A stretch of 25,871 bases of DNA, taken from positions 1 to 25,871 of the IMG/VR virus record IMGVR_UViG_3300035698_005660; one strand, 5' to 3'. The position numbers were made by a program, and so were the translations under genes. The notes beneath the pieces are model-generated. The model worked only from the letters and a program-made list of their open reading frames with translations. It made no database searches and was not told where the DNA came from. Positions 5,508 to 24,598 of this stretch are shown here, piece after piece; positions within the stretch are counted from its first letter, which is position 1; each line of letters begins with the position of its first letter. Source of the stretch: a virus.

Positions 5508-6169
5508 TGGAACCTACAATTGGACAAAGTCTTGCGCAAACTGTTGGCACGCCTCAATTTAGGTCGGGCCTCTTGCAAGCTGGGATTGCTCTTATGCAAC
5601 CAACACCTTTTGGCCAGAGTGAAGTTGGTCAAATCGGCCAAGCTCTGGGTCAAGGTTTCGAGGCGGCGGATAGGGTAACTCAGGGAGAAATCGATGCTCA
5701 GAAAGCGCAAGATACTCAAGCTCTCGCGCAACAAAGAGCTGATGCAAGTACGACAGCGGCCACATCATCTGCGGTTCGGGCTCAAGCTTCGCAGAGATCA
5801 GCGGACGCCAAAGTCTTGGAAGCCACCAATATTGGAACCAGTCTCACACTTTCCCAGAGGTTGACGAAGCAGCGACAAGCCAAACAGGATTTTGATAAGT
5901 GGCTTGAAGCTCGAGATCTTAATCCGACGGCCGCGACTGAAGTCAAAGCCGATCCTCTTCAGTTACAAAAAGCTATTCAACAATGGCAAGCTGAGCGAAG
6001 AGGTTTTCTTGAAAGTTTGAAAAGCGATCCAAACTCGGCGCCAATTGCTGGCGCTCCGGCCGTTCCTGGGGAACTTGCACCTCCAGTACCGGGTGCTCGT
6101 CTAGCTCCTGATGGGAACTGGTATGTTGAGCAACCTGCTGGTAGCGGACAATTTTTTAAGGTGGGATAA
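5507..6169 (+). CDS. Probable internal virion protein, helical Gln/Ala-rich
   Basis: This 220-residue protein has an N-terminus (about 1-55, QFRSGLLQAGIALMQP and GQSEVGQIGQALGQGFEAA) that resembles a segment seen in phage internal or ejection proteins. A long charged and Gln/Ala-rich helical region follows (about 55-165), then a Pro-rich linker (PAVPGELAPPVPG), and it ends in APDGNWYVEQPAGSGQFFKVG, a small beta module. Both ends join neighbours through TAATG, so stoichiometry with the giant protein downstream is probably set by coupled translation. A partner role in the ejection complex is inferred from position. Confidence 0.6.
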   Translation: MEPTIGQSLAQTVGTPQFRSGLLQAGIALMQPTPFGQSEVGQIGQALGQGFEAADRVTQGEIDAQKAQDTQALAQQRADASTTAATSSAVRAQASQRSADAKVLEATNIGTSLTLSQRLTKQRQAKQDFDKWLEARDLNPTAATEVKADPLQLQKAIQQWQAERRGFLESLKSDPNSAPIAGAPAVPGELAPPVPGARLAPDGNWYVEQPAGSGQFFKVG

Positions 6170-9100
6170 TGACAACTCTGACGCCCGTTGATTTCAATCC
6201 TTTTGCGGATTCTCCTGAAGCTGCTCAAGACCCTATACTTAGCGAAGTTCCGGATGTCGCAGGGTCTCTGACTCCTGTGGAGGGGAACCCGTTTGAAGGT
6301 CAACCTCACATTGCAGCTCCAGTTGAGACGGGAGAAGTCCCGCAAGTTGCTCCAGTTCCTGAAGATGCTGATGGTCCGAACGCTTTTATGCGTGGGCTTA
6401 AGCAACAAATTTTTGATGGAAATCCAAAGCTCGTAGCGAGCACTCTTGAAGGGTTTGCGGATCTGACAGGAAGTGATACGTTAAGAAGCTTTAGCAAAAG
6501 TGTCAAGGATTTGGCTGATGCTCCCGACGGGGATGAACGTTTGCGAGCTAAGCGTCTACGAGACCTCTCTTCTTTTGATGAAAGCTTAACTTTCCTGGGC
6601 GAGATCGCTGGTGCGGGTACGGGGAGTTTAGCAGCTCCTATTGCAGGCGCAGCCGTGGGTGCCGGAACAGGAGGCTTAATTGCGGGTCCAGCCGGAGCTG
6701 TGATCGGGGCGGGTGTAGGTGGCCTCACAGGTGGTGGGTTGTTGAACTTTGGCGAAGTGCGTTCAGCTCTAGTTGATGCTGGGGTTGCTCCTAAAGACGC
6801 CGCTGAGGCTATGCTTATTGCAGGTCCGATTATGACGGCTTTGGATGCTCTTCCTATTGGTGGAGTTATTACTAGATTGGGAGGGTTAAATGAAGTTAAG
6901 CGTCAAGCGGCCCGATCTCTGGCTGGTAGGATGGCTGCTGAAGGGGGTAAGTTTGCTACTGCTGAAGGTATTACAGAAGCTGCCCAAGAAGTGGTTAAGG
7001 AAGCCGCAGTTAGCATCGAGGCGGACAAGCCGTTCTGGACTCTAGACAACCTTGAAGGAATTGTCACTGCCGGTATTGGGGGTCTCGTTGTTGGTGGTGG
7101 TATGGGAGTTGCTACAGGGCTAATTCCGGATAGAATTAGTACTCCACTCGATGAGGCAGCAACTAAAGCTTTTGCAGAAACTACACCACCACAAGTTGAA
7201 CCCATTGAAGTCGGAGATCAGCCTAATACTTCGACGCATACTCGAGTAGGGGAGCTTCTTGCTGAAGAAGGAGTTGATCCTTTAGCTGTTCATGAGGCGG
7301 AGCAGATTGCCCGTGAGGCTCTTCAAAATCCGGATTCTCAATTCGACGCCGATACTGGACAAGAGTCTAGTCAGTCAGTAGCTCTGGAAAGTTTAGCAGC
7401 GGGCGATCCAATTGCTGGGTTCTTCTCGCAAATCCAGAAGGTGATTGATGAAAAAATTCCTAATCGGGCTTCGCCGGCGCAAATACGAGCGACACTTGAG
7501 AAAGCTCCAGGAGTTAAGAAAGAAGAATTGGCTCATTTGGCGCTTCCGGCTTGGTTAGATGCTCAGAAAGGAAAAGTCTTAAAGAGTGATTTAATTGCTC
7601 ATGTTGAGTCCCAGTCGCTTCGGCTTAGAGAGGTGACGCGGGGAAATATTCAAGATCCAAAAGTTCCCTTTATTGAAAATCCTGATGGAAGCACTTCTTT
7701 GCAAATTGGACCTGCCCGAGTTGAAATAAGAGAGTTAAAAAGAGCCTTTGGTCGACGATTTTTTGAAGTAACTCGAATTCAAGAGGGAGAATTAATAAAA
7801 GGAAGTGTTTATGGAACTAAAGAAGAAGCGATTGCGGATGTAACCAAGACTTTCATGCGATCCGAGGTAGGGAACACCAATAGCAAAAGGGCGAAATTTA
7901 GAGATTATTCTTTACCAGGTTCTCAAGGCTACAGTGAAATTCTCATAACTTATCCAAGAGAGCAACGGCAGGGCCGAACTCTTGCTAATACTAGACTAGA
8001 ACAAGAAGGTCGAGAAGTTCTGCAAAAAATGCAGGGCGCTTTCAAAACTTTAGATGTTGAGAGATTTTTTGGAACAGATCCAGAAAGAAATGCTCACGCA
8101 CTACAGCAACTGCAAGATGATGGAGTTATTACGGTAGAGGACAAAAGAGCTTTTAATAATTATCTCACACATGTAAGAAATATACGAAAATTTGAAGATG
8201 CAAAATTCGAGTCAACCCATTTTCCCGAAGAGGATTTACTTGCTCATACGAGGTTGAGTTCTTGGATTGACGCTGAGGGTAAGAAAACCCTTCTTATTGA
8301 AGAAATCCAATCTGATATTGTTCAACAAGGGCGGAAACACGGTTTCCAAATGAGCCCCGTAAAAATTCTTGAGATTGAGAACTCGCAAGCCCAAGCAGAA
8401 GTTGCTTTACAAAACTTTCTAAAAAGTAAAGGAGTTTCTATAGATGAAATTAGTCCATACTTAGACGCGGCGTTCTTTAATATTGGAGTTGATACTAGTC
8501 CTTTGGCTGCGTTGGAGTTAGCAAGGGGCAAAGGCATTCAAGAATTTATGGGGAATTTCGACGCGTCAAATCAATTTATTAAACTGGAGAGAGAATTTGC
8601 ACAGGCGCGAGAAGCTGCATTGGCAATTCCTAATTTTGGAGCGGTGCCAGATGTGCCGTTTAAGACTTCTTGGGAAGAACTTGTTATTAAGAAAATCTTC
8701 CGGTATGCTTGGGAGAAGGATTTTGAAAGAGTTGCAATAACTCCTCCAGAAGTGCAAAATGCTCGATTTCGTAACACAGGAGATGGAGCCCAACAAAGCT
8801 TTAAGGAGCGTTATGGGGTAAGATTACCTTCACTTATGAAGAAATGGGCGCGTAAACTCGGCGGACCTACCGGGGTTACGAGCCTCCCAGTTAAAAAAAG
8901 CGATGCTTTTTCCCAGAAAGGACAAGCCCTTTTTGCAGACAATACGACAGTAGATGCTTCAGAGTTGGGGTTCTTTTTTGTTGACGTAACTCCAGCTATG
9001 GGGTTGAAGTTACAGCAAGGATTGCCTCAGTTTAGTATTCCCGTTGAGAGTGGGATCAACACTGCGACTTTAGATATTGATGCTCAGAGTGGAGTTAGTT

Positions 9101-12100
9101 CGAAAGGTGCGGACTTGGTGCCGGCTATTCGCAAGCTTGGCGCGGCTGTGGAGAGTCTTGCCAAGAAGATGGGAATTGATCAACCTATTGAAATAGTTCC
9201 ACGAAGTCGAGAGTCTAGTCAAGGGCAGCTAGGACGAATGGATTCGTGGCGCACGGCTGACGGAGACTACAAAGCTTTCCGAATTAATATTTGGCTCAAC
9301 GCGCATGAGAACGAGTTTGCTGTCTACGCGACAATGATGCACGAGTTTGGCCATATTATTTACCAGACGATCTATCAAAAGGCTCCGATGAAAGTTAAGC
9401 TCGCAATGGACGCGGCTTATAACACGTTCCTTTTGCAAAACAAATTTACGAGCAGCATGTCACAGCTTCTGAGAAAGCGAGATAATTTTCTTACGAACTC
9501 CTTTGATGTGCGCAGACGTAACGATCGTAGCGTGGCGAGTTTAGCTCCAGAGCAAAAACATTATTGGCTAGGGTTTGAGGAATGGTTTGCCGAGCAAGTT
9601 GCGAAATGGGCAACTACGCAAGAGACTCCGTTAAACTTCGTGGATAGTTTCTTTAAGGGAATTGCGAAGAAAATACTGAACGCGTTTAAAATCTTCAACA
9701 GGGCAGGATTTGCTTATCAGGTTACGCCAGAGCAACTTTTCAGTGAATGGCTGGACAGTCTTGTCTCGCAACCCGACTTCGCGTATGAGACCACACTCGC
9801 AGCTCTCGATACTTCGCGAAAAGCTAACCAGAATGCTATGAATAAAGTGGGGCATAATGAGTTTCCAGCGGAGCCTGAAACGTTCGAAACGGGGTTAATT
9901 CGTGATGCTCATGAAAGTATGGGAAATCCTGCAGGAGATGCCGGTCGAGCTACCATTGCAGCTATGGATAGGTTCAATAAATTCTACAAGTATGCGATCA
10001 GCGTAGTCCAGTTGGCTGATTTGAACGAGCACATTAAACCCTTGCAGAGATATCGGGAACTCTTCCAACTCATGAGCCTTGAGCGTATGAAGATTATGGA
10101 CGAGGCGCAAACAACCATCAAGGCGTGGAACCGCTTAGGAAGATTAAGAAGCGCTCGTCTTGGAAACTTCATCGATCATTATATGAATATGAATTATCGA
10201 ACTCAAGTTGAAGTAGATGCCGGAACTGCACGGTTGCCAAGTCCCGCAGAGCGGGCACAGATGGCCCAAGACTTCAATATGGACCAGGAGATGGTTGATA
10301 TTTTCTCTCGAATTGAGAGTGATTTCAATAACATGCTTCGGCGCTATCGAGACATGCTACTACAGGATGCTCAGAATATCGCTGATCCTGCAGAGCAAGC
10401 AGCACGGGTGAAAGAAGTAAATGATCGAATTGCGAATTATCAGCGCCAGCCTTACTTTCCTGCTATGCGCTTCGGCGATTTTACAGTTACTGTTACTGAC
10501 GCAGCTGGGAAGCTTCTGCACTTTGAAACCACAGAAACTCGTAAGAAGCGAGGTAATGCAGCAGAACTATTACGACAGCAATTCCCTAACGCTGAAGTAG
10601 TTGAGAGTATTATGTTTGAGGATGCTAGTCCCATGACTGGTATGCCTGCTCCGGTTTTACAGAAGATCGGCGAGAAGCTGGCGTTATCTGGGCAGCAGCG
10701 AGCCATGCTCGATCAGCTAATGTTTGAGCTAAGCCCAGCGCAGTCATTCAAGCATAGGTTTCAGCGAAAGAATAGAACTCCAGGATACAGTGAAGATTTC
10801 AAACGAGCGTATGCGAATTATTTCTTCCACGGAAGTAACTTCCTAGCTCGCATTAAGTTCTTTGATCGCTTGCAGAACGAGATTCGAAGTGTTAAAGCTT
10901 CGGCTAAAGGGTTAGCTTCGCCAGAACGAAGGGTCAATATTGCGAACTTCATGAGTGAGCATTTGCATTACTTCATGGACCCCAAGCCAGACTTTACGCT
11001 GATTCGAGTAGCTACGGCTTTCTGGGCACTTAGTTTTAGTCCTGCTGCGGCCGGTATTAATTTAACTCAAATGTTGATCGGGTCTACCCCTTTCTTGGGG
11101 GCGCGGTTCGGAACACTACCCGCTTTGTCTGCTATGAGTAAAGCAGGGGCAAACCTATCGACTTACTACCGCAGAGCCACGCTAAAAGGAGTTACAAATG
11201 ATTCGGAACTTCGGGCCCTGAATGAAGCTATTGAAGAAGGAATTATTACGGAAGCGCTGACTACAGAAGTTGCAGCGGTCTCCGAGATGGATAATCTTTC
11301 GCCGGGAGTTAGAAGTCGGATTGGGCGTACCTCTCAAACAGTCATGAATTGGGGAATGAAGCTTTTTGAGTTGAGTGAACAAACCAACCGAAGAGTTACA
11401 TTCCGAGCTGCCTATAGGCTTGCGTTGGATAACCCAGATGCGAAGTATGTCACGGACTCTGTGGAGAAGCATCGCTTGCAATTTAATAGACTTGTTCAGG
11501 GAAGTGTGCAAAGACAAGCTTTCTCTCCACAAGAAGCGGCCGCGTTTGTCACGGCGAAGGATGCAGTCGAGGCGACCCAATATATCTACCAGCACTACGC
11601 TCAGCCAAGGATATTCCGGGGTAAGCTCCGCACAGTGTTTATCTTTAAGACCTTTCTCCAGAATACTATGTTCTTGGTGGGGGGAGGTAGAGGAGTTGAT
11701 ACTGCAGCGAGGGGGCTTTTGGTATTGGGAATGCTCGGGGGCTTCATGGCTTTGCCAGGGGCTGAAGACTTAAAGGGAATTTTGAAAGGGATCGCATTTA
11801 AGCTCTTCGGGAAGGATTTTGATCTAGAGAGAGAAGCCAGGGAATTTATGGTCGAGCATCTTGGGGCCTCTCCCAGAGTGGCGGATTTAGCCCTGCTGGG
11901 AAGTGCCAGAGAAGGCTTCGGTATTCCTGCAGTGATGGATATGATGGGAGTTCCGTTCCCCACGATTGATCGCTCACGTGCGGTTTCTTTGGGGCAAATA
12001 TCTCCTGTTGATATTGGAATTTTACTGGGTCCGGAGAAGGATCAAACCCGCGCGATTAGTGAGAGCGTGCAGAGAGCCTCGGGAGCAGCCTTCGGTATAG

Positions 12101-12678
12101 GGTTCAATATTTATCGAGCTATTACAGATGGGCAGCTTGAGTGGAATGAACTCAAAAGATGGCAGAAAGCTATGCCGAGAAGTTTGGCGTCGCTGACTAA
12201 AGCTTATCAGGCATTTTCAGGGCAAGGTGTTCAAACCAGAAATGGTGCCCAGATTGTGAACTTTGACTTCAACGACCCCGCTCAAATGATGGAAGCCATT
12301 GCGCTAGGTGGTGGGTATCAAAACGTTAGGACGTCCCGAACTTGGGATCGTATAATGGCTCAACGTGAAGTTAGTGAGTATTGGAATATTACTCGACAAG
12401 CTCTTCTGAGACAAGCTGGAGCTGCCCAAGGTCGCGGGGATAAAGGGGAGCTTACTAGGGTTATCGAACGAATTAAAAAGTTCAATAGCGAGTTGCCGAA
12501 GAGCGCGAAACTTAAGACCATTACAAGAGATTCACTCAAGCAAAGTATTCAAAATCGGGCAAGGTCGAGAGCGCTGGCAGAAAGAGGGATACCAAACAAT
12601 AAGAGTGATATCCCAATCTCGCAAGAAATTCAACGTTTGATGGTCGATCCGAATGTTACGATTCGGAAGGTCCGATAA
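6169..12678 (+). CDS. Giant polyvalent internal virion protein with zinc-metallopeptidase motif
   Basis: This 2169-residue protein takes up a quarter of the window. In order: a disordered acidic N-terminus with two copies of TPVxxNPF (5-12 and 35-42); Gly/Ala zipper membrane segments (about 146-195 and 298-320) around a helical part with EGITEAAQEVV; and a domain (about 590-960) with LITYPREQ, LLIEEIQSD (near 711), a helix FRYAWEKDFERVAI, and VDVTPAMGLKLQQGLPQFS. This last domain is typical of large polyvalent proteins of phages and conjugative elements. A gluzincin-like unit follows, HEFGH at 1058-1062 with WFAEQ supplying a third ligand at Glu1142. The C-terminal 900 residues are helical, with hydrophobic stretches near 1619-1648 and 1850-1865, and recall LPD38/PLxRFG-type regions. 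It is probably packaged in the capsid and ejected with the DNA, and the peptidase may act in the host. The membrane and delivery roles are inferred. Confidence 0.8.
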   Translation: MTTLTPVDFNPFADSPEAAQDPILSEVPDVAGSLTPVEGNPFEGQPHIAAPVETGEVPQVAPVPEDADGPNAFMRGLKQQIFDGNPKLVASTLEGFADLTGSDTLRSFSKSVKDLADAPDGDERLRAKRLRDLSSFDESLTFLGEIAGAGTGSLAAPIAGAAVGAGTGGLIAGPAGAVIGAGVGGLTGGGLLNFGEVRSALVDAGVAPKDAAEAMLIAGPIMTALDALPIGGVITRLGGLNEVKRQAARSLAGRMAAEGGKFATAEGITEAAQEVVKEAAVSIEADKPFWTLDNLEGIVTAGIGGLVVGGGMGVATGLIPDRISTPLDEAATKAFAETTPPQVEPIEVGDQPNTSTHTRVGELLAEEGVDPLAVHEAEQIAREALQNPDSQFDADTGQESSQSVALESLAAGDPIAGFFSQIQKVIDEKIPNRASPAQIRATLEKAPGVKKEELAHLALPAWLDAQKGKVLKSDLIAHVESQSLRLREVTRGNIQDPKVPFIENPDGSTSLQIGPARVEIRELKRAFGRRFFEVTRIQEGELIKGSVYGTKEEAIADVTKTFMRSEVGNTNSKRAKFRDYSLPGSQGYSEILITYPREQRQGRTLANTRLEQEGREVLQKMQGAFKTLDVERFFGTDPERNAHALQQLQDDGVITVEDKRAFNNYLTHVRNIRKFEDAKFESTHFPEEDLLAHTRLSSWIDAEGKKTLLIEEIQSDIVQQGRKHGFQMSPVKILEIENSQAQAEVALQNFLKSKGVSIDEISPYLDAAFFNIGVDTSPLAALELARGKGIQEFMGNFDASNQFIKLEREFAQAREAALAIPNFGAVPDVPFKTSWEELVIKKIFRYAWEKDFERVAITPPEVQNARFRNTGDGAQQSFKERYGVRLPSLMKKWARKLGGPTGVTSLPVKKSDAFSQKGQALFADNTTVDASELGFFFVDVTPAMGLKLQQGLPQFSIPVESGINTATLDIDAQSGVSSKGADLVPAIRKLGAAVESLAKKMGIDQPIEIVPRSRESSQGQLGRMDSWRTADGDYKAFRINIWLNAHENEFAVYATMMHEFGHIIYQTIYQKAPMKVKLAMDAAYNTFLLQNKFTSSMSQLLRKRDNFLTNSFDVRRRNDRSVASLAPEQKHYWLGFEEWFAEQVAKWATTQETPLNFVDSFFKGIAKKILNAFKIFNRAGFAYQVTPEQLFSEWLDSLVSQPDFAYETTLAALDTSRKANQNAMNKVGHNEFPAEPETFETGLIRDAHESMGNPAGDAGRATIAAMDRFNKFYKYAISVVQLADLNEHIKPLQRYRELFQLMSLERMKIMDEAQTTIKAWNRLGRLRSARLGNFIDHYMNMNYRTQVEVDAGTARLPSPAERAQMAQDFNMDQEMVDIFSRIESDFNNMLRRYRDMLLQDAQNIADPAEQAARVKEVNDRIANYQRQPYFPAMRFGDFTVTVTDAAGKLLHFETTETRKKRGNAAELLRQQFPNAEVVESIMFEDASPMTGMPAPVLQKIGEKLALSGQQRAMLDQLMFELSPAQSFKHRFQRKNRTPGYSEDFKRAYANYFFHGSNFLARIKFFDRLQNEIRSVKASAKGLASPERRVNIANFMSEHLHYFMDPKPDFTLIRVATAFWALSFSPAAAGINLTQMLIGSTPFLGARFGTLPALSAMSKAGANLSTYYRRATLKGVTNDSELRALNEAIEEGIITEALTTEVAAVSEMDNLSPGVRSRIGRTSQTVMNWGMKLFELSEQTNRRVTFRAAYRLALDNPDAKYVTDSVEKHRLQFNRLVQGSVQRQAFSPQEAAAFVTAKDAVEATQYIYQHYAQPRIFRGKLRTVFIFKTFLQNTMFLVGGGRGVDTAARGLLVLGMLGGFMALPGAEDLKGILKGIAFKLFGKDFDLEREAREFMVEHLGASPRVADLALLGSAREGFGIPAVMDMMGVPFPTIDRSRAVSLGQISPVDIGILLGPEKDQTRAISESVQRASGAAFGIGFNIYRAITDGQLEWNELKRWQKAMPRSLASLTKAYQAFSGQGVQTRNGAQIVNFDFNDPAQMMEAIALGGGYQNVRTSRTWDRIMAQREVSEYWNITRQALLRQAGAAQGRGDKGELTRVIERIKKFNSELPKSAKLKTITRDSLKQSIQNRARSRALAERGIPNNKSDIPISQEIQRLMVDPNVTIRKVR

Positions 12679-13043: not shown

Positions 13044-14264
13044 TTAGTTTATTGTTGAGGGTCTGCATTTAACTCCTAGGGTTCCACCTCTCCTTTCACT
13101 ATCGAGTATGCCACCCCGAACGGCGGACTTAAGCGCTTCTTCAAAATCCTTCTGTGACATCAAATTCATAACTTTTTTCCATATGTCGTCAGATGTCATC
13201 CACTCATGAGCTTGCACAAAAGCAACGATTTCTCCTACATGGCGAGCCCCATCGACAAATCCGATTGCCTCGAAAACCTTGCTTTGGGAGTCTTCGGCTG
13301 TCGCGAGAAGATCAGTAGCTTCTTCAAGTTCCTTTTGATGGATCACCATCTCGGAGTGCTTGGCTGCGCTGAGGATCATTGCTAGCTTAACCAAATGGGT
13401 TTGTTTACGCGCGAGATAGGCATCGTGACGAGTGCTTGCCAAATGCACGGGACGCTCGGTATTGTGGCGATGATACCAGGTCTCCATCCAACCTCCGTCC
13501 CGATCTACACAAGGCTCGAACTCATAGTTCCCCACTAGAGTTGCTATCTCACTTAAGTCCTCTACTAGAAGAGTTTCGAGTTCTTTGAAGCGCGCGTTCT
13601 TAATTCTCTTAGAAGGGAGGGCCGATAAGCGACGCTTCTTACTGCCGAAGACGAACACAATCCGTGACATAAGACCCTCCCCAATGAGGGATGCGGGGAC
13701 ATTCCGCTGAATCCACTCGGGGGTGGTAGCCCCAATGATGTTGAGGAGAGGGTTTGGGACTTCGACCGTTCCACGGCCAACTGTTCGGTGCGTATAGGGT
13801 CGTTTTTTGCCGTCCCAAATGTCTGTAAGGAAGGAAATCGCATGTTCATCATCCGGTCTAAAAAAGGTTCCTAGTTCACTAGCGGCGATTGTAATCGAAC
13901 TCATTACTTCAAGCTCACCCTCCGGGGCTCCTGGTATTTCGAAATACTCGGTACTTTCAGATAGGGCGTCTCCGAGAGCTTGCCAGGAGCCCGAATCTTG
14001 CCCGAACTTAATGCCCTCGATCTTGCGTAATAGATTAACTCCGAGGTTAACCGTGGTGGACTTTTGAGCTACTCCAGCAGGCCCGACTAAGATGATGTAG
14101 AAGTTAGGCACCCATTGGAAGATAAGTTCGTCCCGCCAGACCTTACGTCGCAACGCTCCTGCTATAGTGCCAACGCCCGTCCAGAGATGGAAGCTATCCG
14201 GGGCTTCGGACGCTTGAGTATATTCCATGTAGGCTTGAAGCCAATTCTTGAAGTTCCGCGCCAC
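13044..14264 (-). CDS. DUF3987-type P-loop ATPase, putative replicative helicase/primase-associated
   Basis: This 406-residue protein starts at GTG 14262-14264. A helical N-terminus (NWLQAYMEYTQASEAPDSFHLWTGVGTIAG) precedes FYIILVGPAGVAQKST, an atypical Walker A (61-70, Lys68) in which the usual Gly before Lys is Gln. ITIAASELGTFF (125-135, Glu130) fits Walker B with its glutamate, NIIGATTPEWI (175-185) a sensor, and GLMSRIVFVFG (197-207, Arg201) an arginine finger. This order is that of the DUF3987 group, phage and plasmid helicase-like proteins often beside replication genes. The C-terminal 120 residues contain a winged-helix-like end. A conserved dyad lies 17 bases upstream. Helicase activity is likely from neighbours but not shown. 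Confidence 0.7.
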   Translation of the reverse strand: MARNFKNWLQAYMEYTQASEAPDSFHLWTGVGTIAGALRRKVWRDELIFQWVPNFYIILVGPAGVAQKSTTVNLGVNLLRKIEGIKFGQDSGSWQALGDALSESTEYFEIPGAPEGELEVMSSITIAASELGTFFRPDDEHAISFLTDIWDGKKRPYTHRTVGRGTVEVPNPLLNIIGATTPEWIQRNVPASLIGEGLMSRIVFVFGSKKRRLSALPSKRIKNARFKELETLLVEDLSEIATLVGNYEFEPCVDRDGGWMETWYHRHNTERPVHLASTRHDAYLARKQTHLVKLAMILSAAKHSEMVIHQKELEEATDLLATAEDSQSKVFEAIGFVDGARHVGEIVAFVQAHEWMTSDDIWKKVMNLMSQKDFEEALKSAVRGGILDSERRGGTLGVKCRPSTIN

Positions 14265-14316: not shown

Positions 14317-15069
14317 TTACAAAAAGTTAATTTTAGCGCAGTCCCCCCAAGACTTTTCGCTGCGCTTGATGTCCCAGTTTATAAGAAGAGGATCATCATA
14401 TGGCACGGGAATTCGTAAACCTTCTTGTAATCGGGCTATATCGTCGGCGTACTTGAAAGGAACTTGAAAGACTAAGTTGTCATGAACTTGAAGTAGGATC
14501 TCCACATAGGGACAATGCTTCTCAAGTTGAATAGCTCCCTTAAAGCAAACCAGGGCTACGGTTGATTGAGGACCCCAAGCAAGAGCTTCCGGGAGAAGTG
14601 ACCCAACGCGATCGAAGTATATAATGCGGTAGCCGAATTTATTCCAAGCTGTTTTGTCTAGGTGGAGCCGTGCGTCTACTCGATGCTGCCATTCGCGAAT
14701 GCCGGGATGGAGATGAAACCAGTGTTCTTGAAACTCATTTGCAGCTGAGATTTTCCAACCCAACACCATAGCCATAGCTCGAGCACTGCCACCGTAATTA
14801 GTCAAATGGACGCCTTGCTTGCACTCTTTTCGTTTCTTTGCATACTTATAAGTTTCTGGATCAATGCAGGTGAAGTCTTCTTGCCACAAGTCTGTTGCGT
14901 TCTTGTGATGGATGTCAAGCCCTTCTTTGAAAGCTTTTCGTAAGTCTATGTCATTGGCTTCAGCGGCCACAACTTGAGCATCGGCCCCTTTCAGGTCTGC
15001 ATCGAATATCATGTAGCCGGGGTCTGGAACAAAAATCTTCTTAATGTTTGGTAGTGTGTGTAGTTCCAT
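14317..15069 (-). CDS. DNA polymerase I family A, catalytic palm/fingers fragment
   Basis: This 250-residue protein carries the polymerase half of a family A enzyme with no thumb or exonuclease. It begins LPNIKKIFVPDPGYMIFDADLKGADAQVV, placing motif A near residues 23-32 (catalytic Asp25). Motif B is R80-x3-K84-x7-Y92-G93 within KQGVHLTNYGG, with His88 at the position of E. coli Phe762. Motif C is LLQVHDNLVFQVP (Asp197), where the usual Glu after Asp is Asn. The missing upstream part is at the end of the 580-residue gene at 16006, which stops at LQAIPEGEED. The two chains must assemble to give a full enzyme. Two hairpins lie in the 110-base spacer upstream. Confidence 0.88.
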   Translation of the reverse strand: MELHTLPNIKKIFVPDPGYMIFDADLKGADAQVVAAEANDIDLRKAFKEGLDIHHKNATDLWQEDFTCIDPETYKYAKKRKECKQGVHLTNYGGSARAMAMVLGWKISAANEFQEHWFHLHPGIREWQHRVDARLHLDKTAWNKFGYRIIYFDRVGSLLPEALAWGPQSTVALVCFKGAIQLEKHCPYVEILLQVHDNLVFQVPFKYADDIARLQEGLRIPVPYDDPLLINWDIKRSEKSWGDCAKINFL

Positions 15070-15090
15070 AGGAGTCCTCGATTAAAGTGA

Positions 15091-15121
15091 GGGGAAGAAC
15101 CGAGGCTGTTGATTCTTCCCC
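15091..15121. other. Inverted repeat, 9-bp stem (hairpin 1 before polymerase fragment)
   Basis: GGGGAAGAA at 15091-15099 pairs perfectly with TTCTTCCCC at 15113-15121 across a 13-base loop. It lies in the non-coding spacer upstream of the catalytic polymerase gene. Read on the minus strand it is followed by TCACTTTAATC, only weakly T-rich, so it may be a weak terminator, an attenuator or an RNA-stability element. Confidence 0.6.
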
Positions 15122-15134
15122 CCGTTCCACAAAG

Positions 15135-15169
15135 AGACGCAACGAGGAGAGCTAATCTGAATTGCGTCT
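15135..15169. other. Inverted repeat, 8-bp stem (hairpin 2 before polymerase fragment)
   Basis: AGACGCAA at 15135-15142 pairs perfectly with TTGCGTCT at 15162-15169 across 19 bases. It is the second dyad in the same 110-base spacer (15070-15179), just after the stop of the preceding minus-strand gene. There is no T tract on either side. Confidence 0.5.
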
Positions 15170-15179
15170 TAGAAACGAA

Positions 15180-15521
15180 CTATTTCATCTTAGAGAGTCC
15201 CTTTCTCGTGAGGGGCACCTGTGTCCTCAGTTTAGTTGGATCGGACGGGTCGAGGTGCTCCTTTTGCCCGATGAAAGACTTGTAGATTTCGCGAGTTGCT
15301 GCGTCGAGACGATGTTCTATGTTCTCCAAATTGATTAGAATCCGGCTTTCAGGTATACCTTGGTTTATTCCGGATAGCGCAGCTTCGGAAGAGAAATTAT
15401 AACTAGCGTAGTTTAGTGCTGCTCGAAGTTTGTGCGGAAGCTCATCCCAACAAAAGATATCAACTCTGGTTCCAACGGCTGTTATATCTTTAGGGAGTGG
15501 GCCGGTGTTGCCTGTGTTCAT
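15180..15521 (-). CDS. Unknown protein between the two polymerase fragments
   Basis: This 113-residue protein has a middle section, WDELPHKLRAALNYASYNFSSEAALSGI, that looks like a pair of amphipathic helices opening with L-P-x-x-L-R-x-A-L. Later parts include NLENIEHRLDAATREIYKSF and a basic tail ending LTRKGLSKMK. I recognise no family with confidence; the LP-x-x-LR-x-A pattern is seen in short phage proteins of unknown role. The start overlaps the dUTPase end by four bases (15518-15521), so translation is coupled. It lies in the space where the split polymerase would be continuous, so an accessory role in replication is possible but unsupported by any motif. Confidence 0.7.
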   Translation of the reverse strand: MNTGNTGPLPKDITAVGTRVDIFCWDELPHKLRAALNYASYNFSSEAALSGINQGIPESRILINLENIEHRLDAATREIYKSFIGQKEHLDPSDPTKLRTQVPLTRKGLSKMK

Positions 15522-16006
15522 GCTCCAGTACTCCCAAATCCTTTATTCCCGCGGTCTGTATCATCGAAAGCTTCAGAGACTTCAAGCACTGGTACAGTAA
15601 TGCAAGGCACGATGAGGAGCTGAGCAATTCGGTCTTCATGTTTGATGTACGCCGGTTGACTCGAAGAGTTGTGGACAAGGCAAATGATCTCGCCGGTGTA
15701 ATCGGGGTCGATAACCCCAGGGGCGTTAGCGAGGAAAATCCCGCGGGAAGCTAGCCCCGAGCGAGAGCACGCTAAACATAGGTGAAATTGAGGAGCTTTG
15801 ATTGATATCCCTGTGTGAACTTTTCGTGTTGCGTGCGGCGCCACGGTAATGGTTTGAAGTTTACCGTCGGGGTTCTTTGTGTAGGCGAAGATATCATACC
15901 CAGCCGCTTGGCTGTACGCCCGTTCGGGAGCTTTAGCGTCTTCATGTAGTTTGTAGATTTGAAGGTTCGCGCCAAAAGCTATTCCGTGAGAAACCGTGTG
16001 GGCCAT
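15518..16006 (-). CDS. dut: dUTP diphosphatase (dUTPase, trimeric type)
   Basis: This 162-residue enzyme hydrolyses dUTP to dUMP and pyrophosphate, keeping uracil out of phage DNA and supplying dUMP for dTMP. All five motifs of the trimeric family are present in order: AGYDIFA (35-41), SRSGLASRG (81-89), GVIDPDYTGEI (97-107, with the catalytic-site Asp100 and Tyr103), RIAQLL (126-131) and RGNKGFGSTG (152-161), which closes over the active site. Length is normal. The start overlaps the stop of the UDG-exonuclease-polymerase gene by one base (TGATG), and its end overlaps the next start by four. Pairing with a UDG-like domain suggests a shared uracil-control function. Confidence 0.95.
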   Translation of the reverse strand: MAHTVSHGIAFGANLQIYKLHEDAKAPERAYSQAAGYDIFAYTKNPDGKLQTITVAPHATRKVHTGISIKAPQFHLCLACSRSGLASRGIFLANAPGVIDPDYTGEIICLVHNSSSQPAYIKHEDRIAQLLIVPCITVPVLEVSEAFDDTDRGNKGFGSTGA

Positions 16007-17748
16007 CAGTCTTCTTCTCCTTCAGGGATTGCTTGTAAGTTGGCACCTGTACCAAAAGCGTTCTCGGACGCCGTCCAACGAAAGGTTGCGGTTTTACCGT
16101 ACATGCAACGCATTCGATCGTCGTGATCGAGAGATTTCGCAACAAAATTGGATCTAAAAACCCGAAGAGATCGAAAGTTCTTAAGTGCATCAAACAAATT
16201 AATAAATTCTGGATGAGACCCTTTAAGTTGGTTAAAAGCTTCTTTCCCAAGTGTGGGTTGTTTCGTCTTGCGATCTCTTGGGATTTTGAAACCCAGATCG
16301 TCTTTGAAGAATGTAAGCTGTTGCTTTGGGGAGCGATACCAAGGAGTAGGTTTCTTTGCCTTCGTCTGGAATAGCTCTTGGGGAATACGAGCATCGAACC
16401 ACACACCCATGTTAGAGGCTGCGGTTAATAACTCTAAAGCTAACACAGCTCGTCGTTCCCGATCGATGCGGACGCCTCGGTTCATCATTCGAAGACTTAA
16501 CCCGCCAAATTCTTGTTGCTCTCTCCATTGGGATTCCATCTTCAGCTTAACGATGAGTTCTCGAAGAACAGTATTCACTTCGTAGTTGCGCAAGCAATCT
16601 TCGGCGTTGTATTCGAGGTGAGTTATTAGGTCTCCCTTAAGATCCCACTCCTTATTGTCATCCTTCCAGTACCAGTGGTGTTCGCAGTACAAGCTCGATA
16701 GGTAGTCGAGCCCTTTGGGAGTGCCAGGAAAGAGTAGATGATGTGCCCACATCGAGTCGAAATCGAGGTTGGGGGTAAGGGCGAGGTGGCGTTGGAAGTA
16801 CTGGGTATCGTAAAGATAATTTTGCCCCTCAACGAGACAGTTAGGGTGGCTGAGAAGTCGACGAATTCTACTAACGATTTCATATTCTTGTTTCTCGTTC
16901 CACCAAGAAGTGAAAGATTTTCCCACGAGGTTAATGAAGGGGATGGTCATGGCGAACTTAGGAGAGTCAGCGAAACCCACGCATGTTATGAGGGCGCGAC
17001 TTGTTTCGATGTCGTTTACCAAGCGAAGCTTCTCTCCGGAAGTAACCTTATGGAGCCAGACGTCTAGCTTGGCGATAGCGAAGTCATACGTAGGGGGAGC
17101 TTTTATAACTCGACCTTGAGGGCGCCAATTATCTTTCAACGCTAGTGGGATGCGCTCGCGAAAGTCGTGAATGGTTACCTCGCGATTTCCCCAAGCTCGC
17201 ATAATAGCTGCAGGGTGGATAACGGGGAGGAGTTTGATACCGCATATATCTTCGGGAATACTTTGGGTGTATATTTGCGAGCCACGCCAAGACATAATTC
17301 CGGTAGGTGTACGTCGTCCAGCATCTTCCCCCTTGAGCGTGTTTCCGGTGAGACGGGTTAAAGCCCATAGCGAGTAGTTCCCTGCTGCGATAATAAGTTT
17401 CGGTTTGACGCGCCGGATTTGTTCGAATAAGTTCTCCATGCCCATCATCATGATAGGTTTTGGATGAAGACCCGCGACCATTAGGTCGGGTTTCTCTTTA
17501 GCCGGGTAGAAGAAATGCCATAGCTTGTTACCAGGGGGTTGAGCTGGAACAACGTTCGTTAGGAAGAATTTTGAACGATCGAAGCCGGCCTTGTTTAACA
17601 TACGGGTTAATTCGGAACCAGAGGTGCCGGGAATGTGGTCAATAAAGGGTCGCTTGTTGTAGGCTTCACGATCTCCCCAAGCTTCGCCGACAAGCATGAT
17701 GTCGGCATCCCGAGGGCCTGAAGTTCCGAACCAGCAATCTTCACTCAT
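16006..17748 (-). CDS. UDG-like domain fused to 3-5 exonuclease and N-terminal part of family A DNA polymerase
   Basis: This 580-residue protein has three parts. Residues about 15-205 form a uracil-DNA glycosylase superfamily domain: GEAWGDREA (21-29), PF at 34-35, GTSGSELTRML, TNVVPAQPPGNK (64-75), a strand KLIIAAGNYSLWAL and the closing IHPAAIM (177-183). The 3-5 proofreading exonuclease (about 240-400) keeps its acidic residues: DIET (Asp246, Glu248), GQNYLYD (Asn310, Asp314) and YNAED (Tyr380, Asp384). Residues 410-580 are the polymerase thumb and start of the palm, ending RWTASENAFGTGANLQAIP plus EGEED and a stop. Motifs A, B and C are absent and are encoded at 14317-15069. The Pro of the usual GEAPG is Trp, so glycosylase activity is uncertain. 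The start overlaps the small upstream gene by eight bases. Confidence 0.88.
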   Translation of the reverse strand: MSEDCWFGTSGPRDADIMLVGEAWGDREAYNKRPFIDHIPGTSGSELTRMLNKAGFDRSKFFLTNVVPAQPPGNKLWHFFYPAKEKPDLMVAGLHPKPIMMMGMENLFEQIRRVKPKLIIAAGNYSLWALTRLTGNTLKGEDAGRRTPTGIMSWRGSQIYTQSIPEDICGIKLLPVIHPAAIMRAWGNREVTIHDFRERIPLALKDNWRPQGRVIKAPPTYDFAIAKLDVWLHKVTSGEKLRLVNDIETSRALITCVGFADSPKFAMTIPFINLVGKSFTSWWNEKQEYEIVSRIRRLLSHPNCLVEGQNYLYDTQYFQRHLALTPNLDFDSMWAHHLLFPGTPKGLDYLSSLYCEHHWYWKDDNKEWDLKGDLITHLEYNAEDCLRNYEVNTVLRELIVKLKMESQWREQQEFGGLSLRMMNRGVRIDRERRAVLALELLTAASNMGVWFDARIPQELFQTKAKKPTPWYRSPKQQLTFFKDDLGFKIPRDRKTKQPTLGKEAFNQLKGSHPEFINLFDALKNFRSLRVFRSNFVAKSLDHDDRMRCMYGKTATFRWTASENAFGTGANLQAIPEGEED

Positions 17749-17938
17749 TAGTATCTTGTCCTTGAAGTTGAGCGATCTTGTTGATTAGCTCATGAGCTAA
17801 GTTTTGACAATCAAGAACTGTTGCTGGGCTCATGTTATGAATTGAGTGCTTATCATAATCTTCAGCATTAGCTTCGTGGATGAGATATGTTTTAAGAAAA
17901 CGAGTCACATCCTCAGTTATCCCATAGTTGTCGGTCAT
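17741..17938 (-). CDS. Small unknown protein
   Basis: This 65-residue acidic protein is probably two or three helices (EDVTRFLKTYLIHEANAED, then SPATVLDCQNLAHELINKIAQLQ). No family is recognised. It overlaps the ParB-methyltransferase gene by four bases (ATGA) and the polymerase fragment by eight, so it is coupled on both sides and very likely real. Its place suggests a replication-associated helper, but the sequence gives no specific clue. Confidence 0.7.
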   Translation of the reverse strand: MTDNYGITEDVTRFLKTYLIHEANAEDYDKHSIHNMSPATVLDCQNLAHELINKIAQLQGQDTNE

Positions 17939-19287
17939 AGCAAGTCCTCCTCAATCACATCAACGGGTTTCTCTTCGGGATCTCGCTCAGCCGCAATCAG
18001 CGCGAGGTTGTAAGCTGCTTCATCGATTTCAATTCCGAGGGCTCTTCTATCAAGATGTCGACAAGCTATTAAGGTGGAGCCGCTTCCGCAACACGGGTCG
18101 AGGACAAAATCCCCCGGCATTGTTGAGACCCCGATTAGCTCTTCGAGGAGTGAGACAGGTTTCTCTGGACCGTAGCGACGCTTCGATCTCGACACGCGCT
18201 TATGTGTGAGGGTATCTGTGGGGGATTGAAGGAGTCCCTTGTTACCCTTCGTGGCGAAGAAGATCATTTCATATGTGCGTCGAGGACCTTCTCTACCCCA
18301 AGGGGCTAAACCTTCGGTTTCAGATTTTTGCCAAATCAAAGGAGTTCGGAAAGGCTTCCACCCCATAGATGCAGCTTGGTCTTTGAAGAACGCGAAGTAA
18401 TCCACGTCGCCAAACATAAACAAGTTCGCTCGCGGTTTCGTCAAACGAAACGTCTCCACGAGAATAAACTTCATAGCATTGAGAGCAGCTTCAGGGCTGT
18501 CGTCGTAATTGTGATGCTCAACAGTACGACTACGAAACCCTCCAGTATCAGCACTGATCCCATACGGAGGATCCGCAAACACCAGATCGGCGAGACCGCT
18601 CTCCAAAGTGGGGAGTACATCATACATAGACCCATGTGTTACGCCAATGAAACTGGGGGCTTCGGGAGCTGCTAACTTCCGTCGCTTGATAACCTCAGCT
18701 TCGAGCTTGGCTTCTTCTTCTTTCATAAAAATGCCATAAGCTTCGGTAGCATTACGAGCTTTAGCGACGGCTGGACGATGCAAGTTTTCAGCGAGAATAG
18801 TAGCTTGTTTTATTTCTTTGCGAATGTGGAGAGGGTGGCGCGTGTCACCTTTCTCAATCAGAACTTCAGCCGTTTGGGGGTAGGTTTGTCCAGGGTTTTC
18901 TGCGACACGTCGCTTGTGAATACCCGCTAAAGCTTGAGATCGATCATGCCAATTTAAATCAGCTCGAATGATATTTTCTTCAAGCTCAGCTTCCATCAAA
19001 TCGGCGTCACTTAAGTCAGCGACGTTTACGAAAGGAACGAAGCCGAAAGGAACCAGCTCGTTATCAAATAGAAATGGAAGCTTCTCTTCGTGTAGGAGCC
19101 TCATCGCTTCGAGGCGGTGCATCCCAACTAAGAGAAACTGCTGGGCGGTTTCGGAATCGGTAGCTAGAACTGGCGCGTGAAGAAGTCCTTTACTTCGGAT
19201 CGAGTCGCAAAGCTGCTTCACGGTAGGCGGGGAGATTTCGCGCTGGCGGTCCCGGATCTCAATTTCTTCGATAGCAATCAGCATCAT
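17935..19287 (-). CDS. ParB-like domain fused to DNA (adenine-N6 or cytosine-N4) methyltransferase
   Basis: This 450-residue protein has a ParB/Srx-type domain at about 1-130, with LLVGMHRLEAM (52-62) as the G-x-H-R motif and ELEENIIRADLNW (101-113) as the E-N-x-x-R-x-x-L box. A helical linker follows, then the amino-methyltransferase: DLVFADPPYGIS (catalytic DPPY 239-242), a target-recognition part, and LDPCCGSGSTLIA (396-408) with GIEID (418-422) for AdoMet. DPPY before the AdoMet motif is the beta-class order, as in CcrM and HinfI enzymes. The enzyme probably marks phage DNA against host restriction or alters binding of host regulators; the target site cannot be told. GAGG five bases before the paired ATG-ATG is a good ribosome site. 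A terminator-like hairpin lies immediately upstream. It ends in EEDLL. Confidence 0.9.
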   Translation of the reverse strand: MMLIAIEEIEIRDRQREISPPTVKQLCDSIRSKGLLHAPVLATDSETAQQFLLVGMHRLEAMRLLHEEKLPFLFDNELVPFGFVPFVNVADLSDADLMEAELEENIIRADLNWHDRSQALAGIHKRRVAENPGQTYPQTAEVLIEKGDTRHPLHIRKEIKQATILAENLHRPAVAKARNATEAYGIFMKEEEAKLEAEVIKRRKLAAPEAPSFIGVTHGSMYDVLPTLESGLADLVFADPPYGISADTGGFRSRTVEHHNYDDSPEAALNAMKFILVETFRLTKPRANLFMFGDVDYFAFFKDQAASMGWKPFRTPLIWQKSETEGLAPWGREGPRRTYEMIFFATKGNKGLLQSPTDTLTHKRVSRSKRRYGPEKPVSLLEELIGVSTMPGDFVLDPCCGSGSTLIACRHLDRRALGIEIDEAAYNLALIAAERDPEEKPVDVIEEDLL

Positions 19288-23993: not shown

Positions 23994-24336
23994 TTTCAAG
24001 CTCCTCCAGGGGGTCAGATTTGAGAGTAGGAAGTGCCGTTCCCGAGACAGTGTTGAGAACATCGTCGAATTCGCTAACGCGTGGGTAAAGTACGAGAGTT
24101 GAAGAGTCATCTCCTTTTTTGGAAACTACAGTTCCGTAGAGAGGTTCCCATGCTTCTTTCTCTTCGAAACGTTCTTTCTTTGAGCGGCTTCGAAACGTAC
24201 AAAGTTGGGATTGTAAGCGGTGGGCTCGCCTCTCCGTGCCACAAGGGATCTCAAAGCGTTCGAAAGTACCCCGCAAGAGGAGTTCCCGAAAGCGCGGATC
24301 GAACCCGCTTAGTGGTATGTTCTTTGTGTCACCCAT
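23986..24336 (-). CDS. Unknown protein
   Basis: This 116-residue protein has an N-terminal half (PLSGFDPRFRELLLRGTFERFEIPC) that looks helical and charged, a basic and acidic middle (FRSRSKKERFEEKEAWEPLYG) and strand-like pieces (TVVSKKGDDSSTLVLYPRV) that may form a small beta unit. No family is recognised. Overlaps of eight bases at both ends make it part of a coupled series of short early genes. The calculated charge pattern suggests a soluble protein; a role is not visible. Confidence 0.6.
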   Translation of the reverse strand: MGDTKNIPLSGFDPRFRELLLRGTFERFEIPCGTERRAHRLQSQLCTFRSRSKKERFEEKEAWEPLYGTVVSKKGDDSSTLVLYPRVSEFDDVLNTVSGTALPTLKSDPLEELEND

Positions 24337-24598
24337 TTTGGGTCTCCTTAAGACGTCTAGCTGCGGCGCGCTTTCGTTTTGCTATTCCTCGAGCTTTGCG
24401 CCCGGCGCCCTTGATGCGAAGGATCTGAGAAAGCTCTTCTTCGGAACGACCCCAAATTATTCCGAGCTTGTGGGCTTTGCCTAAGATGGAGTTGCGAGTT
24501 CGATCGTGACGCAAAGCAATCTCGCTAGCGGTTAGGCGTAAGGTTTCGATCTCGTGCTTAAGACGAGCTTTCTCTTCCTCTGTCCAAGGGCCGTTCAT
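24329..24598 (-). CDS. GcrA-like helix-turn-helix protein
   Basis: This 89-residue protein opens with WTEEEKARLKHEIETLRL, then TASEIALRH and RTRNSILGKAHKLGI (about 33-47). The W-T order, the A-S-x-I-A helix and the T-R-N-(A/S)-(V/I)-(I/L)-G-K-x-H-(R/K)-L-G-(L/I) helix match the N-terminal DNA-binding domain of GcrA, the alphaproteobacterial cell-cycle regulator that acts with CcrM methylation. The rest is a basic tail (RKARGIAKRKRAAARR) in place of the sigma-factor-binding C-terminal domain of full GcrA. It may steer host or phage promoters, or mimic GcrA. It overlaps both neighbours by four to eight bases. Confidence 0.75.
   Translation of the reverse strand: MNGPWTEEEKARLKHEIETLRLTASEIALRHDRTRNSILGKAHKLGIIWGRSEEELSQILRIKGAGRKARGIAKRKRAAARRLKETQNG

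Follow-up and report, generated by a model that had tools for sequence, protein, structure and literature searches.

In Aeromonas phages 25 and 44RR, gene 43 is split into 43A and 43B, and the phage 25 chains co-purify and are polymerase-active (PMC2988022); the same source describes NrdA of Aeromonas phage Aeh1, whose gene is in two parts and whose two chains assemble into a functional enzyme. Phages of the MEP401/MEP402 type that infect OM43 encode their family A polymerase by two genes that flank a small open reading frame (ORF), and the involvement of an intron was left open (PMC10580990). A further report (PMC7776575, citing Kelman 1999) states that Methanothermobacter PolB is encoded by two polypeptides. 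The DNA polymerase of phage SPO1 (gp31) is one chain, in which a uracil-DNA glycosylase (UDG) domain (Pfam, 79.7 bits) and an exonuclease precede the start of PolA. Two-gene phage polymerases (phage 25, MEP401) and a UDG–polymerase fusion (SPO1) are thus already known. Here we analyse a family A polymerase (PolA) that lies in two genes with a dUTPase gene between them in IMG/VR virus record IMGVR_UViG_3300035698_005660. This stretch of 25,871 bases, probably a fragment, is called the window throughout.

The window locus resembles gene 43 of phages 25 and 44RR in placing a replicative polymerase in two genes with sequence between them; theirs is a family B enzyme, whereas this one belongs to family A, and the phage 25 insert is a seg homing endonuclease, with no UDG domain or dUTPase described for either phage. 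In MEP401 the gene is broken about 15 residues beyond this point, immediately ahead of motif A (...EIKTLFLSRYGE* / MILNADAK), and the N-terminal half (N-half) is an exonuclease without UDG, unlike the N-half of the window. SPO1 gp31 has the same UDG–exonuclease–family A architecture, but there a single chain is restored by an intron, whereas no intron was found at this locus. The original prediction, made from the window's letters, had regarded the fusion to a UDG-like domain as unusual; this is not supported, as SPO1 has the same architecture and unsplit UDG–PolA relatives are common. Methanothermobacter PolB is alike in consisting of two polypeptides, but is an archaeal cellular family B enzyme, and Aeh1 NrdA is a ribonucleotide reductase broken by the homing endonuclease mobE rather than a polymerase. 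The same loop as in the window is split in Vibrio phage vB_VspS_VS-ABTNL-3 (PVS_29 / PVS_27), which also has a DUF3987-like gene downstream; its break holds a gene for 184 amino acids that is not a dUTPase, and its record annotates two proteins with no split-enzyme interpretation. As in a gene in pieces, the two window ORFs together correspond to one enzyme and each has its own translation signals. There has been hardly any work on natural two-chain family A polymerases, and the sole published case that we found in the open-licence literature is MEP401, with its possible intron. What appears new is the extent of the group, the exact break shared by UDG–PolA enzymes, its repeated gain or loss and the presence of dUTPase in the break, although an earlier description may exist beyond the open-licence literature searched.

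Two ORFs are complementary parts of one polymerase

The two ORFs complement each other as the parts of a single family A DNA polymerase. The N-half (positions 16006-17748, minus strand) encodes 580 amino acids with a UDG-like domain, a 3'-5' exonuclease, a thumb and motif 1, and the C-terminal half (C-half; 14317-15069, minus) encodes 250 amino acids with palm, fingers and motifs A, B and C. The C-half covers positions 140-352 of the 381-position family A profile PF00476 (74.4 bits against a cut-off of 34.3), and the N-halves of relatives cover positions ~6-139. Compared with solved Pol I, sequence profiles of the C-half (E 1e-28) and the N-half (E 3e-17) fell on disjoint, abutting stretches of Klenow, at chain positions 366-596 and 14-362, respectively. 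AlphaFold2 models of the N-half (predicted local distance difference test (pLDDT) 92) and the C-half (pLDDT 96) both matched Pol I structures in the thumb, palm and fingers fold: on Bst Pol I they occupied residues 297-631 and 631-876 (VIA-align, Z about 19-24; 23.7 for the C-half), and the N-half model matched Klenow 328-684 with Z 20.6 (VIA-align). Because the profile and model mappings abut there, we place the break in the palm loop after NLQNIP and ahead of the strand to motif A, equivalent to Bst residues about 628-633, with the halves meeting at 631.

The reading of the edges largely bears out the original prediction. Both polymerase genes, with a dUTPase and a 113-residue gene between them, are found on the minus strand where they had been placed. 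The N-half ends in GANLQAIPEGEED followed by a stop, reading NLQAIPEGEED*, as had been claimed, and motif 1 (TFRWTASENAFGTGANLQAIP; 16024-16086, minus) is its final conserved block ahead of the break in alignments. The C-half begins MELHTLPNIKKIF; the motifs A (D25, D30), B (K84, H88, Y92) and C (H196 D197) attributed to it are present, whereas the start that it had been given needs correction, since five residues (MELHT) stand ahead of LPNIKK. That the gene is broken at one precise spot between motif 1 and motif A is confirmed both by the Klenow and Bst mapping and by the use of the same loop in relatives.

Residue conservation was read from an alignment of 56 sequences. In the family-4-like UDG domain of the N-half (amino acids 11-188; UDG-superfamily domain 17185-17718, minus), the GExxGxxE and HP motifs are conserved (E22 in 55 of 56, E28 in 54, H178 in 52 and P179 in all 56), and the domain matches Thermus UDG 1ui0 with Z 21 (VIA-align). 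The classical family-4 Fe-S cysteine set is not conserved, no column of the UDG region having Cys in more than 25 of the 56 sequences, and the domain stays under the curated TIGR00758 cut-off (60.7 versus 125.3 bits), so uracil-glycosylase activity is uncertain.

Among known family A enzymes, dideoxynucleotide discrimination is governed by the position corresponding to E. coli F762. At this motif B position (C-half residue 88; 14806-14808, minus), His occurs in all 56 polymerases, unsplit ones included. Nothing on His at position 762 was found in Nasko 2018.

A large phage group shares the break

A search with an N-half profile gave 80 viral loci, in each of which both halves were read. The polymerase was split in 49 records, 43 of them non-duplicate when the window is counted with its 42 relatives, and all at the same loop, with the consensus edges ...NLQNIPKGEED* / LPNIRKxFxPDPGY and a start mostly 2-14 amino acids before LPN, sometimes more. 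Both halves were present and unsplit in 23 records; Microcystis phage Mel-JY34 and phage ctMlz233 are unsplit. Among six contigs in bacterial genome assemblies, additional to the 43 loci, two were split. The search of phage genomes proposed in the original prediction, for the same break and for unsplit relatives, thus returned at least 42 non-duplicate split relatives and 23 unsplit records, and the split is not a one-off: dozens of phages have it, with gains and/or losses on several occasions. We rejected sequencing or assembly error, as dozens of contigs, independent of one another and carrying different inserts, show the same break. UDG-type PolA is broken elsewhere in Caulobacter phage Kuura (L005 5971-9375), within the exonuclease domain, and in phage ctLwi270 (L097 1727-4364), at the exonuclease/polymerase border.

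In a tree built on both halves, 37 split records formed one clade, in which two unsplit records (L042, L059) were nested, and additional splits (L061, L077, L062+L085 and L065/L002/L075) lay among or beside unsplit records. At least six changes between the split and unsplit states are required, five of them forced by well-supported branches; with more records and outgroups, the numbers were eight and five. A single origin, with the split rows held as one clade, was rejected on the tree (approximately unbiased (AU) test, p 4e-78), the root state being uncertain and the outgroup branches very long. Judged from this tree, splitting or re-joining occurred repeatedly, and each change may be a break or a re-fusion given those long outgroup branches. 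The break loop adjoins the group I intron site of SPO1, which lies between TGRLSSNEP and NAQQFP, about 6 residues upstream, making an early mobile-element invasion plausible; an element drawn to the conserved DNA of this loop could plausibly have started the breaks.

In this large phage group, one active site would be divided between two chains at a single exact loop, and unsplit sisters as well as apparent re-fusions are available for comparison. The group makes it possible to test how a replicative polymerase survives a palm cut, why the cut recurs beside a known intron site and whether the break serves as a landing site for partner genes, dUTPase among them. Such loci may also provide natural break points for split-polymerase engineering, and phage polymerase counts that rely on one full-length gene miss such enzymes.

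The halves probably form a two-chain enzyme without splicing

The family A polymerase of this phage is very probably a two-chain enzyme assembled without splicing, with the complex and its activity predicted from the genes. The complementary halves, their precise shared break and separate starts, the conserved sites, purifying selection and the lack of a second polymerase in the records searched all support the earlier suggestion that the enzyme is probably rebuilt from two chains. Two separately translated proteins would then constitute the replicative family A DNA polymerase: chain 1 would bring the UDG-like and proofreading exonuclease domains together with the thumb and motif 1, and chain 2 the remainder of the palm plus the fingers, including catalytic motifs A, B and C. 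Docking of the chains would be non-covalent and would rebuild one active site with neither RNA nor protein splicing. The halves belong to a single run of genes that share one orientation and often overlap; this run is presumably co-transcribed and would have taken up nucleotide-metabolism genes at the break, dUTPase above all.

Some observations weigh against a two-chain enzyme. Eight of the 43 split loci lack an ATG, GTG or TTG within 15 amino acids of LPN, so their C-halves would have an N-terminal extension or another start. Motif 1 of the window reads NLQAIP, with an odd Ala where 55 of the 56 aligned sequences have Asn. Finally, the window is a 25.9-kb fragment, and a second polymerase could lie elsewhere in its phage.

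The best surviving alternative, although an improbable one, is that the halves act apart, the N-half as a free UDG or proofreading nuclease and the C-half with another partner or as a transferase. This would suit an N-half that has two complete nuclease/repair-like domains, and would not require equal amounts of the two chains. However, the thumb and motif 1 of the N-half, with T555, R557 and N570 invariant in the 56 sequences, only make sense with a palm, and the C-half is without a DNA-gripping thumb. The evolutionary distances of the two halves are also correlated much as in unsplit enzymes (r 0.78 in split loci, 0.84 in unsplit). As dUTPase distances in split loci correlate less well (0.46 with the N-half and 0.41 with the C-half), the halves behave as one enzyme and the dUTPase as a more exchangeable passenger, a contrast that may partly reflect differing rates and short dUTPase sequences.

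Hardly more favoured by the data, and marginally less probable, is RNA splicing that joins the halves, with the dUTPase and ORF113 inside a cis or split trans-splicing intron. The SPO1 polymerase intron, with its homing endonuclease so near the break, would fit this, as would the strong RNA hairpins in the intergenic stretch ahead of the window's C-half (15070-15179, minus; minimum free energy -41.2 kcal/mol, z -3.5). Yet the hairpins are not common to relatives (mean z -0.34, 43 loci), Rfam introns had no match in the window or in 22 relatives, and the inserts are unrelated to one another among many of the phages. Moreover, the C-half has translation signals of its own, a start codon and a ribosome-binding site. 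In the window, GAGG stands in the same intergenic stretch a few bases 5' of the ATG; 35 of the 43 loci have a start within 15 amino acids of LPN, and a Shine-Dalgarno match of 4 nucleotides (nt) or longer accompanies 27 of these starts, compared with 20% of internal codons. The distance from the N-half stop to LPN ranges from 14 to 2905 nt, and in four relatives (L065, 14; L039, 19; L062, 22; L034, 35 nt) it is below any self-splicing intron size. Relative to the N-half, the C-half lies in frames 0, 1 and 2 in 17, 14 and 12 loci, and the N-half stop overlaps the next start in 23 of 43 loci. Separate starts with Shine-Dalgarno matches, the use of all frames, gaps of 14-35 nt and stop/start overlaps exclude an intron or intein as the general explanation.

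The same starts, frames, gap range and overlaps make it very unlikely that ribosome hopping or frameshifting yields one chain. Bypassing in T4 gene 60 is a precedent, and the very short gaps in four loci would be amenable to it; other gaps, however, hold whole genes and reach 2.9 kb, all three frames occur at about equal frequency, and the C-halves have separate ribosome-binding sites.

No better placed is the view that the halves are decaying remnants in a phage that uses the host polymerase or another enzyme. A palm break would kill a single-chain enzyme, but the ratio of non-synonymous to synonymous substitutions (dN/dS), where computable, is 0.09-0.16 in both halves, and the split persists across a large divergent clade. 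Catalytic residues are invariant or nearly so: exonuclease D246 and E248 (the DxE pair), D314 and D384 and polymerase D25 and H88 are present in 56 of 56 sequences, K84 and Y92 in 55 each, and motif C D197 in all 54 that have the column. The original prediction had held that another full family A polymerase in this genome would speak for remnants; none was found in the window record, and across the split contigs searched PF00476 matched nothing but the two halves. Searches of the window record and of 17 relatives, whose contigs measure 38-52 kb, likewise returned neither PolB (family B) nor Pol III alpha (family C).

Least probable of all is a split intein joining the halves by protein trans-splicing, for although split inteins are known in fractured phage genes and one split relative has an intein-like insert, if elsewhere in its C-half, the edges are too tight for intein halves in the window and most relatives, and none were found at the inner ends of either half in the window and relatives, in line with the earlier claim of no intein block (the window's N-half ends at most 5 residues past the motif 1 block and its C-half begins 5 before LPN). 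The insert in that relative (L078 6851-8476, plus strand) is in frame, about 300 amino acids long and situated between AWVPQ and STVA.

The break often holds a dUTPase gene

The window dUTPase (15518-16006, minus) has 162 amino acids, scores 93 bits with Pfam and exceeds the NCBIfam dut cut-off; its start shares bases with the N-half stop (TGATG), and its own stop is overlapped by 4 bases by ORF113 (113 amino acids; 15180-15521, minus). ORF113 had no relative in the fetched loci or family libraries. Of the 43 non-duplicate split loci, 26 have a dUTPase in the break. Other breaks hold a ribonucleotide reductase (L047, L057 and, by length and sequence, L089), an exonuclease with a weakly Mom-like protein (L061), DUF3310, DUF7768 or small ORFs. 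No dUTPase adjoined an unsplit polymerase among those examined, and one of ten unsplit records had a dUTPase anywhere. No homing endonuclease was found in the window's insert, nor by Pfam in the inserts of relatives. The second ORF in the break of L024 (153 amino acids) is HNH-like by eye, unconfirmed and without a Pfam match, and is the sole endonuclease candidate in any break.

A more speculative and on balance unlikely proposal is that the break is maintained, with the UDG–exonuclease chain, the dUTPase and the catalytic chain forming a uracil-excluding replication module expressed from one overlapping gene run. If so, a polymerase in two chains would allow proofreading and uracil handling to be tuned, exchanged or regulated relative to synthesis, and the presence of dUTPase in the break across most of one clade would be accounted for.

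Gene neighbourhood and further features of the window

In minus-strand reading order, the locus comprises an ORF of 65 amino acids, the N-half, the dUTPase, ORF113, the C-half and a DUF3987 primase/helicase-like gene (13044-14264, minus) directly downstream. Nearly every relative with a locus that extends far enough, whether split or unsplit, also has a DUF3987-like gene at this downstream place. No minus-strand promoter-like site ahead of the C-half was found in 14900-17900. Elsewhere in the window, a weak GcrA-like ORF (24329-24598, minus), which does not reach the Pfam cut-off, and a CcrM-like methylase whose N-terminus weakly resembles ParB (17935-19287, minus) together hint at an alphaproteobacterial host. 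On the plus strand, a giant protein of 2169 amino acids (6169-12678) carries a PLxRFG domain (NCBIfam tail-700, 289 bits).

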